A stretch of DNA of 48,952 nt from Chloroflexota bacterium (GTDB lineage Bacteria > Chloroflexota > Limnocylindria > P2-11E): NCBI GenBank assembly GCA_005889405.1, contig VBFY01000038.1, positions 1 through 48,952 of the forward strand. The letters are read 5' to 3'. Both the position numbers and the translations under genes were made by a program. The notes below the pieces were generated by a model that saw nothing but the letters and a program-made list of their open reading frames with translations, had not been told where the DNA came from and made no database searches. Positions 19,575 to 48,952 of this stretch are shown one piece after another. How positions within the stretch are numbered: position 1 is the stretch's first letter; each line of letters starts with the position of its first letter.

Positions 19575-19964
19575 GTGAAGTACATCCTCATCGCGGAGGA
19601 CGACGCCGACGTCGCCGAGCTCCTCCGCGAGGTGCTGAGCGAGCACCTTGACGTCGCGACCGAGAACGTCGCGAACGGCGCGCTCGTCATGGACTCCCTC
19701 GTCGCGCGTCGGCCCGATCTCCTCATCCTCGATATCGAGATGCCCGGCCTGAGCGGCCTCGATGTGTTCGACCTTATGCGTAACGACCGCCACTGGCAGG
19801 GCGTGCCGATCCTTTTCCTGACGGCCCTTCCCGAAAAGGCGCCGACCGCGAACGCGCCGGCGGGCGTGCACGAGATCATCGCGAAGCCGTTCGACATCAA
19901 CAGCCTGCTCGCGACGGTGGATCGCCTCATGGCCGGCAACCGCCGCCCCGAGATCGCGGCTTAA
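19575..19964 (+). CDS. Single-domain response regulator
   Basis: 129 aa CheY-like receiver with the acidic pocket EDD near residue 9, phospho-acceptor Asp in LLILDIEMPG, Thr in FLTALP and Lys in IAKPFD. No output domain, so it works through protein contacts or phosphotransfer. A GTG start gives the usual KYILIAEDD N-terminus. No kinase is nearby. Confidence 0.88.
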   Translation: MKYILIAEDDADVAELLREVLSEHLDVATENVANGALVMDSLVARRPDLLILDIEMPGLSGLDVFDLMRNDRHWQGVPILFLTALPEKAPTANAPAGVHEIIAKPFDINSLLATVDRLMAGNRRPEIAA

Positions 19965-23664: not shown

Positions 23665-23716
23665 GGAATGCTCCGCTGTTCTAGTGTGTGGAAGCTCTTT
23701 CCAGAAAGGACCGCTC

Positions 23717-25042
23717 TTGGCCGACTACGACCTCGTCATCATCGGCGGTGGCCCCGCCGGGCTTACCGCCGGACTGTACGCCGCGCGCGCGAACATGAGC
23801 GCGGTCCTGCTCGAGGGCAAGGACGTCGGCGGCGAGATTCTCAACACCGATCTCATCGAGGACTACCCCGGTTTCGCGTCCGTTACCGGAACTGAGCTCG
23901 CCCAGAAGATGGCCGACCATGCACGCAAATTTGGTCTCAAGATCGAGACCTACGCGCGCGTGAAGCAGATCCGCGTCGACGGCGACCGCAAGGTCATCGA
24001 GCTCGAGGATGGCACCACGCACCGCGCGTACGCCGTCATCATCACCGTCGGCGGCGAGCCCACCAAGCTCGGCGTTCCCGGCGAGGCGGAGTACCACGGC
24101 CGAGGCGTGTCGTACTGCGCCGTCTGCGACGGCGCGTTCTTCAAGGGCAATGACCTCGCCGTCATCGGCGGGGGTGACAGCGCGTTCCAGGAGGGCCTGT
24201 TCCTCACGCGTTTCGCGAAAAAGCTGCACCTCGTGCACCGGCGTGGCGAGTTCCGCGCGCAGGCGATCCTGCGGGACCGCCTGCTCGCGAAGGACCTCGT
24301 CCACACCGTGACCCCAGCGACGGTGAAGGAGATCGGTGGCGACGGCACCGCTGTGCGATGGATGGACGTCGAACGTGACGGCAAGGTCGAGCGCATCCCG
24401 GTCGAAGGCGTGTTCGTGTTCATCGGCTTCAAGCCGGTCGGCAGTCAGCTCTTCGCTGACCACATCGCGCATGACGAGAACGGGTATCTCATCACCGACC
24501 AGTTCATGCAGACGAGCATTCCCGGCGTGTACGCCGCGGGCGATACGCGCGCGCAGCTCGCCAAGCAGATCACGACCGCCGTCGGCGACGCCACGACGGC
24601 GGTGCTCCATGCCGAGCGCTACATCGAGGAGCTCAAGGACATGGAGCGTGCCTTCCCGCAGGCGCCGCGCGAGGTCGTCGCCCAGACCGCGAGCCGCATG
24701 ACGATACTCACATTCCCGCCAGGTGCGGTCGTCATGCGCCAGGGCGAGCCTTCGGATCGCTTCTACGTCATCGCGAAGGGCGAGGCGGTCGTCGTCCACC
24801 GCGAGCCGGACGGGTCCGAGCGGACGCTCAACACGATCCACGCCGGCGATTTTTTCGGCGAGGTCGGCATCCTCACCGGACACGCGCGGAACGCGACGGT
24901 GCGGGCGAAGACTTCCCTCGAGGTGCTGGCGCTCGACGCCGACGGCCTGCGCACGCTGATGTCGAGCTCGCAGAAGACCAGCGATGACGTGGCACGCGTC
25001 GCGAAGTCGCGCGAGCGTGTCGAGGACGGTGCCGCGGGCTAA
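23717..25042 (+). CDS. Thioredoxin reductase-like flavoprotein fused to a cyclic-nucleotide-binding domain
   Basis: 441 aa from a TTG at 23717 with AAAGGA 6 nt upstream. Residues 1-310 form a low-molecular-weight thioredoxin reductase: FAD loop IIGGGPAGLTAG, redox CAVC (Cys134, Cys137), NADPH loop VIGGGDSAFQEG and the C-terminal FAD motif GVYAAGDTR. Residues from about 328 form a Crp-like cNMP-binding domain (FPPGAVVMRQGEPSDRFYVI, FFGEVGILTGHARNATV) in which the Gly-Glu and Arg of the phosphate cassette are kept. There is no DNA-binding domain. Cyclic-nucleotide control of disulfide reduction is inference. Confidence 0.9.
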   Translation: MADYDLVIIGGGPAGLTAGLYAARANMSAVLLEGKDVGGEILNTDLIEDYPGFASVTGTELAQKMADHARKFGLKIETYARVKQIRVDGDRKVIELEDGTTHRAYAVIITVGGEPTKLGVPGEAEYHGRGVSYCAVCDGAFFKGNDLAVIGGGDSAFQEGLFLTRFAKKLHLVHRRGEFRAQAILRDRLLAKDLVHTVTPATVKEIGGDGTAVRWMDVERDGKVERIPVEGVFVFIGFKPVGSQLFADHIAHDENGYLITDQFMQTSIPGVYAAGDTRAQLAKQITTAVGDATTAVLHAERYIEELKDMERAFPQAPREVVAQTASRMTILTFPPGAVVMRQGEPSDRFYVIAKGEAVVVHREPDGSERTLNTIHAGDFFGEVGILTGHARNATVRAKTSLEVLALDADGLRTLMSSSQKTSDDVARVAKSRERVEDGAAG

Positions 25043-25455
25043 GCCGCGATCGGCGGAGCAAGCTCCTTGATGTCGGCGATGAGCTCGTTGAGGTCGAACG
25101 GCTTTTGCAGGACCTTGCGGATGCCGCGCTTCCGGAACTCGGGACCGTACTCTTGCGACACCGCCGTCTCGAAGATGACCGGGACGCGCCGCAGGCGATC
25201 ATCCTCGTGCAGCCGGTCGTAGAGCTCGAGGCCGCTCATGCCCGGTAGCCCGACGTCGAGGAGGAGCAGATCGGGCTTCACCTGCTCGCAGGTGTGCAGT
25301 GCTTCGCTCGCGCGCGTCACGAGGATGGCCCGGTAGCCATCCTCGTCGTTGATCACGCCCGCGAGGAGCTCCCCGATCGGCCGGTCGTCCTCGACGACCA
25401 TGACGATCCTCGTTCGCGCGTTACCGGCTGTAACCATGCCCTCTGGGCTGCGCAT
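25039..25455 (-). CDS. Single-domain response regulator
   Basis: 138 aa receiver: acidic pocket in VVEDDRP, phospho-acceptor in LLLLDVGLPG, Thr in FETAVS and Lys in VLQKPFD. No output domain. Possible starts are ATG 25455 and ATG 25437. It converges with the reductase fusion, stops overlapping, and lies 125 bp downstream of the next receiver gene on the same strand. Confidence 0.86.
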   Translation of the reverse strand: MRSPEGMVTAGNARTRIVMVVEDDRPIGELLAGVINDEDGYRAILVTRASEALHTCEQVKPDLLLLDVGLPGMSGLELYDRLHEDDRLRRVPVIFETAVSQEYGPEFRKRGIRKVLQKPFDLNELIADIKELAPPIAA

Positions 25456-25580: not shown

Positions 25581-25973
25581 TTAGCGGTCTTTGTGTGTGC
25601 GCTTTGCGTGCGCGGGCAGATATTGGTCGATGGCCGCGCGAAGCTGCTCCGGGTAATACGGCTTCGCGAGGAATCCGTCGCAGCCGGCGGCCAGCGCGCG
25701 CTCGCGGTCCGGCGGCGTCGCCGACGCGGAGATGGCGATCATCCGCATGTCCTTGCCCCACGCTTCCCTGCGGACCGCGCGAGCGAACGCGAACCCGTCG
25801 AGCCGTGGGATATGTAGATCGAGCAGGATGAGCTCCGGGCGCGTTGCCTGCGCGACCGCGAACGCGGTCTCGCCGTCCATCGTCGTGATGGGCTCGTGCC
25901 GCGCGAGCCGCACGATGCGCAGGGCCAGGTCCATGCTCGCGGCGTCGTCTTCGACGATGAGGATGCGGGCCAT
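25581..25973 (-). CDS. Single-domain response regulator coupled to the NYN gene
   Basis: 130 aa receiver: acidic pocket EDDAAS, phospho-acceptor LILLDLHIPR, Ser/Ala at the switch (AISASA) and Lys in FLAKPYYPEQL. The ATG overlaps the stop of the NYN gene (ATGA), so the two are translated together. No DNA-binding output domain. Confidence 0.88.
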   Translation of the reverse strand: MARILIVEDDAASMDLALRIVRLARHEPITTMDGETAFAVAQATRPELILLDLHIPRLDGFAFARAVRREAWGKDMRMIAISASATPPDRERALAAGCDGFLAKPYYPEQLRAAIDQYLPAHAKRTHKDR

Positions 25974-45399: not shown

Positions 45400-45843
45400 T
45401 CAGTAAATCGCGAGCCAGACGAGGTAGATCACGAGCAGCGCCACCGCGAGCACGAGCAGCACGAGGACGATCGTGCCGAGCGTTCCGAGGGTCGCGGGAG
45501 ACATCGGCCGTGTGACCCCATCGATCATCTTCACGAACTCGGCCGCCGTCGCGTCCTTGCGTAGCCAGCCCCGTCCCTCAGGTAGTCGCCGCAGCAGCGT
45601 CCGCCCATCGGCCTCTGTCCCCGACAGGACGAGTGTCGGCGCGCCGAGGTGCACGCGCGCTCCACCGCCTAGCAGCGTGCCATCGATGAGTGCGACATCG
45701 GGTCGCCAGTCGCGGAGCGCGGCCGCCTCCGCCGCCCCGGCAACACGACGGAGGTCGTAGCGCTTCTCGAGCCGGAGCAGGGTCTCGATGCCCGATCCGA
45801 TCACGGGGTGAGCGACCACGAGAAGCACCCGTGTCTGTGCCAA
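45400..45843 (-). CDS. Degenerate receiver-like protein with C-terminal transmembrane helix
   Basis: 147 aa. RVLLVVAHPVIGSGIETLL aligns in style with NarL-type RVLIVDDHPVVREGL, but the acidic pocket is VA instead of DD. Asp54 (DVALIDGTLL) and Lys96 (GWLRKDATAAEFVKMI) sit at phospho-acceptor and Lys positions. The switch Thr/Ser region is LVLSGTE. The rest (about 121-147, LGTIVLVLLVLAVALLVIYLVWL) is a membrane helix. Phosphorylation is unlikely without the acidic pair. Confidence 0.68.
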   Translation of the reverse strand: MAQTRVLLVVAHPVIGSGIETLLRLEKRYDLRRVAGAAEAAALRDWRPDVALIDGTLLGGGARVHLGAPTLVLSGTEADGRTLLRRLPEGRGWLRKDATAAEFVKMIDGVTRPMSPATLGTLGTIVLVLLVLAVALLVIYLVWLAIY

Positions 45844-45984
45844 TGCCGCTATTCAACGCCACGCGCGGCGCCCATCGCGCCCATTAAATAGGTGCGTCCC
45901 CCAGGCGGGCGAGCGAGCTGTCGCTGATCCGTCGACCTTGTAGGGAATCGCGACACGCCTCTCCTACCTTTCTCACACCTGCGA

Positions 45985-46022
45985 CCGATAGCCCTAAAGC
46001 GGCCCAAACCCGAGGCTATCGG
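45985..46022 (+). promoter_or_regulatory. Leader hairpin directly before the ATG at 46024
   Basis: CCGATAGCC (45985-45993) and GGCTATCGG (46014-46022) are perfect 9-bp inverted arms around a 20-nt loop. The right arm ends one base before the ATG and contains part of the only Shine-Dalgarno-like sequence (GAGG), so folding should block initiation. The loop CTAAAGCGG... matches no riboswitch I recognise. Confidence 0.6.
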
Positions 46023-46023
46023 C

Positions 46024-48952
46024 ATGCCAACACGGGTCCTCGTAGCCGACGACCACCTCGCGATCCGCGAGGGTATCCGCTCGCTACTTGCCCCGGATGA
46101 CGAGCTCCTCGTCGTTGGCGAGGCCGCTGACGGCGTCCAGGCGAGCCGCATGGCGCTGGAGCTCAAGCCGGACCTGATCCTTCTCGACAACTCGATGCCG
46201 GGCAAGACCGGCCTCGAGGTCGCCCGCGAGCTGAGGCCACTCCTGCCCGACGCCTCGATCGTCTTCCTCACGCTCGACCCCGGGATTCGCGACCTCGCGC
46301 TCGCGGTCGGGGCGGTCGCGCACATCTCAAAGGACACGGCACCACAGGAGACTCTCCGCATCCTCCGCCAGGTCGCGCTGAATCGCGCGCAGGCGAAGCC
46401 GGCGGAGCTCACCGCGATCGAACGCACGCTTGCCGGAGCGCTCGTTGAAGAGCACCTCTTCACGAACGATCAGATGGCGCGCCTCGTGGCGTCGCGGCAA
46501 GCGCGCGAGTCCCTCGCGGCCGCCCTGATCCGGACCGGTCTCATTCCCGACGCGCGCGCGGCGCAGGTCCTCGCGCGTGTCAGCGGCAGGCCACTCGTGA
46601 CGCTCACTCCACACCACGACACCGGAGTTGTGCGCCTCGCTCGCGGCCGCCGCAGCCTCATCGACCCGATCGATCCGACCGTTGCCGCGCAGCTCGCGAA
46701 ACGTCTGTGCGAGCAGCGTCACGTGGTCCTGCTTTCGCTCGGCCGTAGCGAGGCGACCCTCGCGATGGCGAACCCGCTCGACGATCAAACGCCGAACGAT
46801 GTCAGCGCTCTCCTCGGAAACGTCCCGGTCAACGTCGTGACTGCCAGCGCCGGCGAGATCGCAGCTGCGATCGCGCGCGGCTTCGTCGCCCCAAATCCAA
46901 AGATCGCAGCGATACCGGTCGCCGAGCGCGCCGCTTCGAGCGAGCGCCGGCGCCGCCCGCTCCTTCTCATCGCTGCCGTCCTCGCCGCGCTACTGCTGTT
47001 CGTCACGAGCGCCGGCGTGATCCTTGGCCCGGCCGCGAGTGCGGTTCAGGCGCGCGCGAATGTCACGATCTTCCAGGGCAACGTGGACGTGCGCAGCGGC
47101 AACGGCGCATTCGCGCCGGTCGGCACCGGTTACGTCGTGCGACAGGGCGACACGCTCCGCACGCGTGCCGCGTCGAACGCAGCGCTCACCTTCTTCGATG
47201 AATCGGTGGTCGTCCTCGAGCCCGGCACCGAGATCGAGATCGTCGAGCTCCGCGCACAGTCCAACGGCGCGATCGCTGCGACGCTGCGTCAGACCGCTGG
47301 CACGACGTGGCACGTGGTCACTCACCAGTCTTCTACGCGCTACGCCGTCAACACGCCGACCGCGACCGCGTCAGTGACGGGCACGGCCTTCACAGTCCGT
47401 GTCGACGGCGCGGGCGCAACGACGATCAGCACCACCGAGGGCGCCGTCGACGTGCGCGGTGTCGATAGCGCGTCCAACGCGAACCTCTCGGTGACCGCGG
47501 GCCTCACGACCACGGTCGCGTCGAAGGGTGTGGCGCCGTCGGCCGCCGCCACGCTCGCGCAGACCAGCGTCACCTTCGTGCTTGACGGCTCGCGCGACGC
47601 GGTCATCGTCGACCGCACGGGTCGGTCCGCCGGCATCAGCGATGGCACCCTCGTTCGCTACATCCCGGGCTCGACGGTGGCTCGCGTGGAATCGAATGTT
47701 GTGGTGACGATCCCGAACGCCGATGGCGATCGCTTCGGATCGGTCGTCACACCGCTCGGTCGCGCCGACAACGTGAGCGTCGCTGCCGAGGCACACAACT
47801 CGGACGGCGTCGTCGTCGCCCACATCTCCGACACACGCCCCGTCGTTGACGGCGTCGCCGTCGGTGGTGTTCGCGTGAGCAGTAGAGAAATTGTTTCGCT
47901 CAGCGCCGACGTCGTGCGCACGCTGCCGTCGCCGATGACTGCGAGCGTTCCCGCGAACAACGGCTCCGACATCCTCGCGCTCTTCCGTCGTGAGCCGAGC
48001 GCCGCCGGCAACGCGGGTCCAGCCGGCCCCGCCGGCACGCCGGGTCCCGCGGGTCCTCCTGGTCCTCAGGGTCCGACTGGGACTGCTGGCGCCGACGGCA
48101 CTACGGGTGCGCAGGGCCCTGCGGGTGGTGCGGGCGCGAACGGTGCGAATGGTGCGAGTGGTGCGCAAGGGATCGCTGGAGTGAACGGCGCCGATGGCGC
48201 GACGGGTCCGATCGGTCCCGCGGGCGCCAATGGATCTGTTGGTCCTGCTGGCCCGGCTGGTCCCGCCGGCCCCGCTGGTCCTGCTGGCGGCCCGACAGGC
48301 CCCGCAGGTCCTGCTGGTCCGACGGGTCCGACAGGTCCGACTGGCGCCGCCGGCGTTGCCGGTCCCGCGGGAACGAATGGTGTTGATGGCGCGACTGGCC
48401 CGACTGGTCCCGCCGGTACCGCAGGTGCTGCGGGACCGACTGGTCCTACTGGTGCAGCCGGCGCGAACGGGGTTGATGGTGCGACCGGTGCGACCGGAGC
48501 TGCCGGGACGAATGGTGTTGCTGGTGCGACCGGTGCTCAGGGTCCGATCGGTCCAGTTGGTCCGACAGGTCCTACTGGTGCGACGGGTGCCGCAGGCGCG
48601 ACTGGTCCTACTGGAGCGGCCGGCACGAACGGGGTTGATGGTGCGACCGGTGCGACCGGTGCGACTGGTGCAACCGGAGCTGCCGGGACGAACGGTGTTG
48701 ATGGTGCGACCGGTGCTCAGGGTCCGATCGGTCCAGTTGGTCCGACAGGTCCTACCGGTGCGACCGGTGCGATTGGTGCCACGGGCGCAACCGGAGCTGC
48801 CGGGACGAATGGTGTTGATGGCGCGACCGGTGCTCAGGGTCCGATCGGTCCAGTTGGTCCGACAGGTGCGACCGGTGCGACTGGTGCCACGGGCGCGACC
48901 GGAGCTGCCGGGACGAATGGTGTTGCTGGTGCGACCGGTGCTCAGGGTCCGA
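46024..48952 (+). CDS. Receiver-MshEN-TM-FecR-collagen chimeric surface protein (partial)
   Basis: One frame is open for 976 codons with no stop before the window end. Domains: receiver (1-120) with ADDH, acceptor Asp in [10 protein letters not shown], Thr in FLTLD and Lys in HISKD; a GspE N-terminal/MshEN-like domain (about 133-287, [12 protein letters not shown]..., [38 protein letters not shown]); RRRR and a membrane helix (313-335); FecR domain (about 345-500, [40 protein letters not shown]); a beta-type region (about 513-655) like that of the gene at 9077; then collagen Gly-X-Y repeats from 662. Cytoplasmic sensing linked to an exposed stalk is inference. Confidence 0.88.
48007..48952 (+). 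repeat. Collagen-like Gly-X-Y repeat array
   Basis: About 104 Gly-X-Y triplets, with one register break (an extra Gly, codon 48286-48288). Early triplets are GPA-rich; later ones are built from a longer unit containing GAAGTNGV(D/A)[16 protein letters not shown], recurring at 48496, 48676, 48793 and 48901. The intervals (180, 117, 108 bp) are all multiples of 9 bp, one triplet. The array continues past the window. Confidence 0.93.

Follow-up and report, generated by a model that had tools for sequence, protein, structure and literature searches.

A thioredoxin reductase with a C-terminal cyclic-nucleotide-binding domain in a Chloroflexota family, a candidate for control by cAMP

A thioredoxin reductase (TrxR) joined to a Crp-type cyclic-nucleotide-binding (CNB) domain is represented by ATII-TrxR from the Atlantis II brine pool, which combines PF07992 and PF00027 and for which NADPH-dependent thioredoxin reduction was shown (PMC6544261). 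This protein is 87% identical to a Cupriavidus metallidurans TrxR (PMC6544261), and its CNB domain is N-terminal (residues 13–146, with the reductase at 234–522 of 552), while in the protein considered here the reductase comes first (3–308) and the CNB domain follows (326–436). The preliminary description of this locus had mentioned N-terminal nucleotide-domain fusions in related flavoproteins, for which ATII-TrxR is an example (PMC6544261), and had called the C-terminal arrangement less familiar. The latter agrees with the literature searched, in which no C-terminal CNB-TrxR fusion was found and ATII-TrxR was the sole relevant case of TrxR with CNB.

The mycobacterial cAMP-dependent lysine acetyltransferase Pat (Rv0998/MSMEG_5458) is activated by cAMP through relief of autoinhibition and is thus a precedent for the gating of a bacterial enzyme by a fused CNB domain (PMC8556138), and in mouse HCN2 the residues E582, R591, and R632 are named as important for cAMP binding (PMC3283738).

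The fusion gene and its reductase module

The window, i.e., the whole analysed stretch of 48,952 nucleotides, carries the TrxR-CNB gene at positions 23717..25042 of the plus strand, and the assignment of its 441-residue product with a TTG start is based on the open frame, the ribosome-binding site, the Pfam domain pair, and full-length orthologues. The putative Shine-Dalgarno sequence AGAAAGGA (23703..23710, plus strand), read from the sequence, lies 6 nt 5' of TTG 23717, and the N-termini of orthologues coincide with the residue of this start. The frame is open from 5' of the TTG through the stop at 25042, and the frameshift between the two domains which the preliminary description had considered as a possible objection is absent. 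The domain search places Pyr_redox_2 (residues 4–291, 6e-46, far over the cut-off) and then cNMP_binding in one protein. Frameshift or chimeric assembly was ruled out by the single open frame and by an architecture kept in 23 genomes, and the conservation of the complete architecture throughout a family of genomes excludes a chance origin; on this sequence evidence it is close to certain that the fusion gene is real.

Three stand-alone response-regulator receiver genes are located near the reductase, at 19575–19964 (plus strand), 25039–25455 (minus strand), and 25581–25973 (minus strand), of which the second is convergent with the reductase and overlaps its stop by four bases.

The N-terminal part of the product is predicted to be a complete low-Mr TrxR, as had been proposed from the first reading. 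The module with its FAD, NADPH, and FAD domains (residues 3–308; 23723..24640, plus strand) was delimited by TIGR01292, PDB matches, and AlphaFold, and the FAD/NADPH two-domain fold of about 310 residues is present by Pfam, NCBIfam, and PDB structure matches. The redox-active motif C134-A-V-C137-D-G (CAVCDG; 24116..24133, plus strand), which in E. coli TrxR reads CATCDG, has both cysteines invariant in alignment A1 and in orthologues, and the NADPH motifs GGGDSA (151–156) and HRRGEFR (174–180) are conserved both among the orthologues and across an alignment of 36 sequences. The TIGR01292 thioredoxin-disulfide reductase model is matched over its full length by residues 4–303 (E 3e-100) with 334.8 bits, narrowly below the curated cut-off of 343.45 bits, which is an annotation threshold and not a biochemical feature, so the name thioredoxin reductase is used here by fold and motifs.

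The full-length AlphaFold model is confident (pLDDT 90.3, pTM 0.80), with the TrxR module mostly above 90. PDB matches of TrxR structures over residues 1–309 reach Z 38–40, with 39.9 as the highest value, and up to 46–47% identity, and the FO conformation fits the reductase part better than FR (5mjk, rmsd 2.3, vs 5mh4, rmsd 6.2).

The CNB domain and its pocket

In the AlphaFold model a TrxR helix (285–312) is followed by a short helix (318–327) and then by the CNB domain; the helical linker between the modules, made of the tail of the first helix and of the second one, was set at residues 309–325 (24641..24691, plus strand). The C-terminal CNB domain with beta barrel, alphaB, and alphaC (residues about 326–436; 24692..25024, plus strand) is indicated by structure matches and by Pfam cNMP_binding (PF00027; residues 332–417, 2.5e-24, 85.5 bits against a cut-off of 27.5). 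When modelled alone it reaches pLDDT 78.7, and the CNB model matches PKG, MloK1, SthK, HCN, and Rv0998 acetyltransferase CNB structures with Z 17–19, including cAMP- and cGMP-bound ones.

The intact cNMP pocket (FGE...RNATV) noticed in the preliminary description corresponds to the phosphate-binding cassette FGEVGILTGHARNATV at residues 380–395 (24854..24901, plus strand), and the closer comparison upholds it, with the ligand-contact residues invariant across orthologues: F380, G381, E382, L386, R391, and A393 are unchanged in 22 of 22. Identity to the window protein among the same orthologues is 33–94% for the CNB domain and 69–96% for the TrxR part; as judged by these sequences the CNB domain evolves faster than the reductase, with its pocket frozen. 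Of the 93 residues of the CNB domain 11 are invariant, and each of the six pocket positions tested belongs to these (hypergeometric P 6e-7, a naive value ignoring phylogeny and structural constraint). In the alphaC helix Arg432 (25010..25012, plus strand) is also invariant in the alignment and stands 41 residues past R391, as does R632 of HCN2, and the spacing E382–R391 is 9, so that both distances are those of mouse HCN2 E582/R591/R632; the HCN sequence was checked against PDB chains and gives a gap-free alignment with the window CNB. In the E382–R391–R432 region a gap of two residues occurs in one orthologue (L130).

FGE and Arg are often conserved in CNB domains, also in some for which cNMP binding is not required. 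In the present case a dead CNB domain is disfavoured because the pocket residues are invariant and have HCN2-like spacing. An explanation of the domain as a degenerate or structural tail without ligand could appeal to its faster divergence and to its loss at the orthologous locus in two genomes (G091 and G171), but the domain is kept, with its ligand contacts invariant, in 23 of the 25 family genomes, which makes such an explanation improbable.

The nature of the ligand was considered separately. In well-studied cAMP/cGMP sites a small residue (Ala, Ser, or Thr) follows the pocket Arg, and in the orthologues the residue following R391 is N, I, L, R, T, S, or V; as it varies so widely, no preference for cAMP over cGMP is claimed from this position. 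This variability, together with the presence among the CNB structural matches of 6hyq, a cAMP-independent PKA regulatory subunit with CNB fold bound to guanosine, would suit a sensor of some other ligand (a nucleoside, a different nucleotide, or a small metabolite) instead of a 3',5'-cNMP. However, the ribose-binding Glu and the phosphate-binding Arg are among the residues invariant in all 22 orthologues, the alphaC Arg keeps the HCN2 spacing, and the genome contains cyclase genes, so a ligand of this other kind is judged unlikely, and the pocket, by its sequence, probably binds a cyclic nucleotide.

Distribution, ancestry, and genomic context

The order includes 29 genomes, 25 of them with a TrxR match, and the fusion is found in 23 of these 25 at 62–95% identity, a count which includes a few partial or end-damaged copies. 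Related contigs in the public collection belong to Chloroflexota metagenome-assembled genomes (MAGs), the scan being biased to close relatives. None of the matches listed, up to an E-value limit, for the remainder of the class (177 genomes) or for 400 genomes of the phylum was a fusion, and a CNB-first permuted query of 400 Chloroflexota genomes gave no N-terminal fusion among the matches listed up to such a limit. When plasmids were searched for relatives, close or permuted, the matches listed were ordinary TrxRs and other flavoproteins, the best with about 47% over the reductase part.

A phylogeny of the fusion had also been suggested in the preliminary description, and the tree of the TrxR part requires two changes, which are taken as a single gain on the stem of the family followed by a single nested loss. 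All other TrxRs lie outside the fused group with 100/100 support, and G091 and G171 are nested within it, where they form with two fused members a clade supported at 98/92; the fusion is accordingly read from the tree as ancestral to this Chloroflexota family. In G091 and G171 the reductase ends after its last helix, without CNB, at the orthologous locus, and in G091 it is flanked, as in the window, by short-chain dehydrogenase and NYN-domain-type genes (identities by reading), with the reductase stop adjoining the NYN stop. Two family genomes (G415 and G075) contain a second, unfused TrxR (L134 and L135), 37–38% identical; TrxR matches elsewhere in the class have about this identity, so the family may have acquired the fused type as a replacement.

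The genome of the window is a MAG of 3.05 Mb in 114 contigs, judged 96% complete, and a search of this 96%-complete MAG found no other TrxR. It contains thioredoxin-family genes (best match E 4e-33), with a thioredoxin gene at G000:C48, and 14 matches to the PF00211 class III cyclase domain, some of which are in long frames of about 1100 residues and may be non-catalytic. The best cyclase match (L136) is a membrane-type protein that gives a good alignment to adenylyl cyclases of mycobacteria and mammals, in which its Lys (VEKIRTIGD) and Asp (FDIWGDSVN) stand opposite their counterparts in the second catalytic domain of AC8, the adenine-specifying residues of mammalian adenylyl cyclases; by sequence it is a likely adenylyl cyclase. 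In G091 and G171 only 2-3 cyclase domains and 5 CNB domains are present vs 14 and 15 in the genome of the window. A link between loss of the CNB and loss of cyclases was not counted as evidence, as it would concern one event in incomplete genomes.

The CNB domains of the window's genome number 15, and CNB tails also occur on a DyP-type peroxidase, an MFS transporter, and a pyridoxal-dependent (PLP) decarboxylase. The DyP-type peroxidase (Dyp_perox_N/C; L003, G000:C36, about 24484–24774, minus strand; also L203) is a second redox enzyme with a C-terminal CNB and has an intact FGE...PRTATV cassette. At another locus (L004, G000:C28, about 45653–46319) the MFS transporter (plus strand) and the decarboxylase (minus strand) face each other with their C-terminal CNB ends, the cassette of the decarboxylase looking degenerate, and a further CNB domain (L008, G000:C24, from about 779) is N-terminal on a multi-pass membrane protein that reads as transporter-like.

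The spread of the 15 domains, some of them on unrelated enzymes and transporters in an adaptor-like manner, and the known alphaC-mediated dimerisation of CNB domains in CRP-type proteins are compatible with a role in placement or assembly, in which cyclic nucleotide binding would oligomerise the reductase or tether it to other CNB proteins and leave catalysis unaltered. A frozen pocket amid a drifting domain is nevertheless more in keeping with ligand-dependent behaviour than with a passive scaffold, and a role in placement or assembly appears rather unlikely, though less so than a different ligand or a tail without ligand.

Proposed function and comparison with known systems

The most economical view of the protein is that of a housekeeping NADPH-thioredoxin reductase whose tail would bind a ligand and have a regulatory role. 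The preferred reading is that of a thioredoxin reductase modulated by cAMP via the CNB domain set on the last helix of the FAD domain, for which we estimate a probability of about 0.55 from sequences and models. Control of the reductase activity by the CNB domain has, taken by itself, about an even chance, and the genomic context of cyclase-domain genes and a sole TrxR makes cyclic-nucleotide control of the reductase plausible. Among the possible ligands cAMP leads, as the pocket has the canonical form and the genome encodes a likely adenylyl cyclase. In the proposed sequence of events cAMP (less likely cGMP) from the class III cyclases of the organism would be bound in the CNB pocket by E382, R391, and the alphaC R432, the alphaC lid would close, and the helical linker joined to the FAD domain would move; the signal may reach the reductase by this linker helix, by the FO/FR domain rotation, by dimer geometry, or by thioredoxin access, changing thioredoxin reduction. 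In the available part of the report ATII-TrxR was active in assays without a listed cyclic nucleotide, and no cyclic-nucleotide effect is described there (PMC6544261), which suggests that a CNB domain need not be an obligatory switch.

On a wider and only tentative view, cAMP would directly gate the only TrxR of these bacteria and set the thiol-disulfide reducing flux of the whole cell after translation, and the CNB tails of the DyP peroxidase, transporter, and decarboxylase would represent a general plug-in of the lineage. The supply of NADPH and thioredoxin is normally regarded as the limit on thioredoxin reductases, and a conserved nucleotide-sensor tail on the apparently sole TrxR of most family genomes would be a direct link from second-messenger signalling to redox homeostasis.

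The fusion has the fold, the CxxC pair, and the NADPH motifs in common with TrxB proteins (TIGR01292; Bacillus cereus 7aaw, Staphylococcus aureus 4gcm, and Thermosipho 7jyp), but the solved TrxB proteins stop near residue 310, where the fusion continues into the CNB domain. Pat, too, is a bacterial enzyme to which a CNB domain is fused (fold match Z 18.6–18.8); however, it is another enzyme with an N-terminal CNB, and the comparison is of the works-like kind only. In HCN2, SthK, and MloK1 the CNB domain is also C-terminal to the effector module, and the spacing of E, R, and the alphaC Arg is that of HCN2, but these proteins gate ion channels, and identity over the aligned CNB residues is about 23–30%. 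The closest relatives of ATII-TrxR are Cupriavidus proteins and not those of Chloroflexota. In summary, within the literature searched CNB-TrxR fusions were already known in the CNB-first order, and the new element is the opposite order, which has become fixed in a bacterial family on the apparently sole TrxR of most of its genomes. With N- and C-terminal fusions both in view, the repeated evolution of such control becomes testable.
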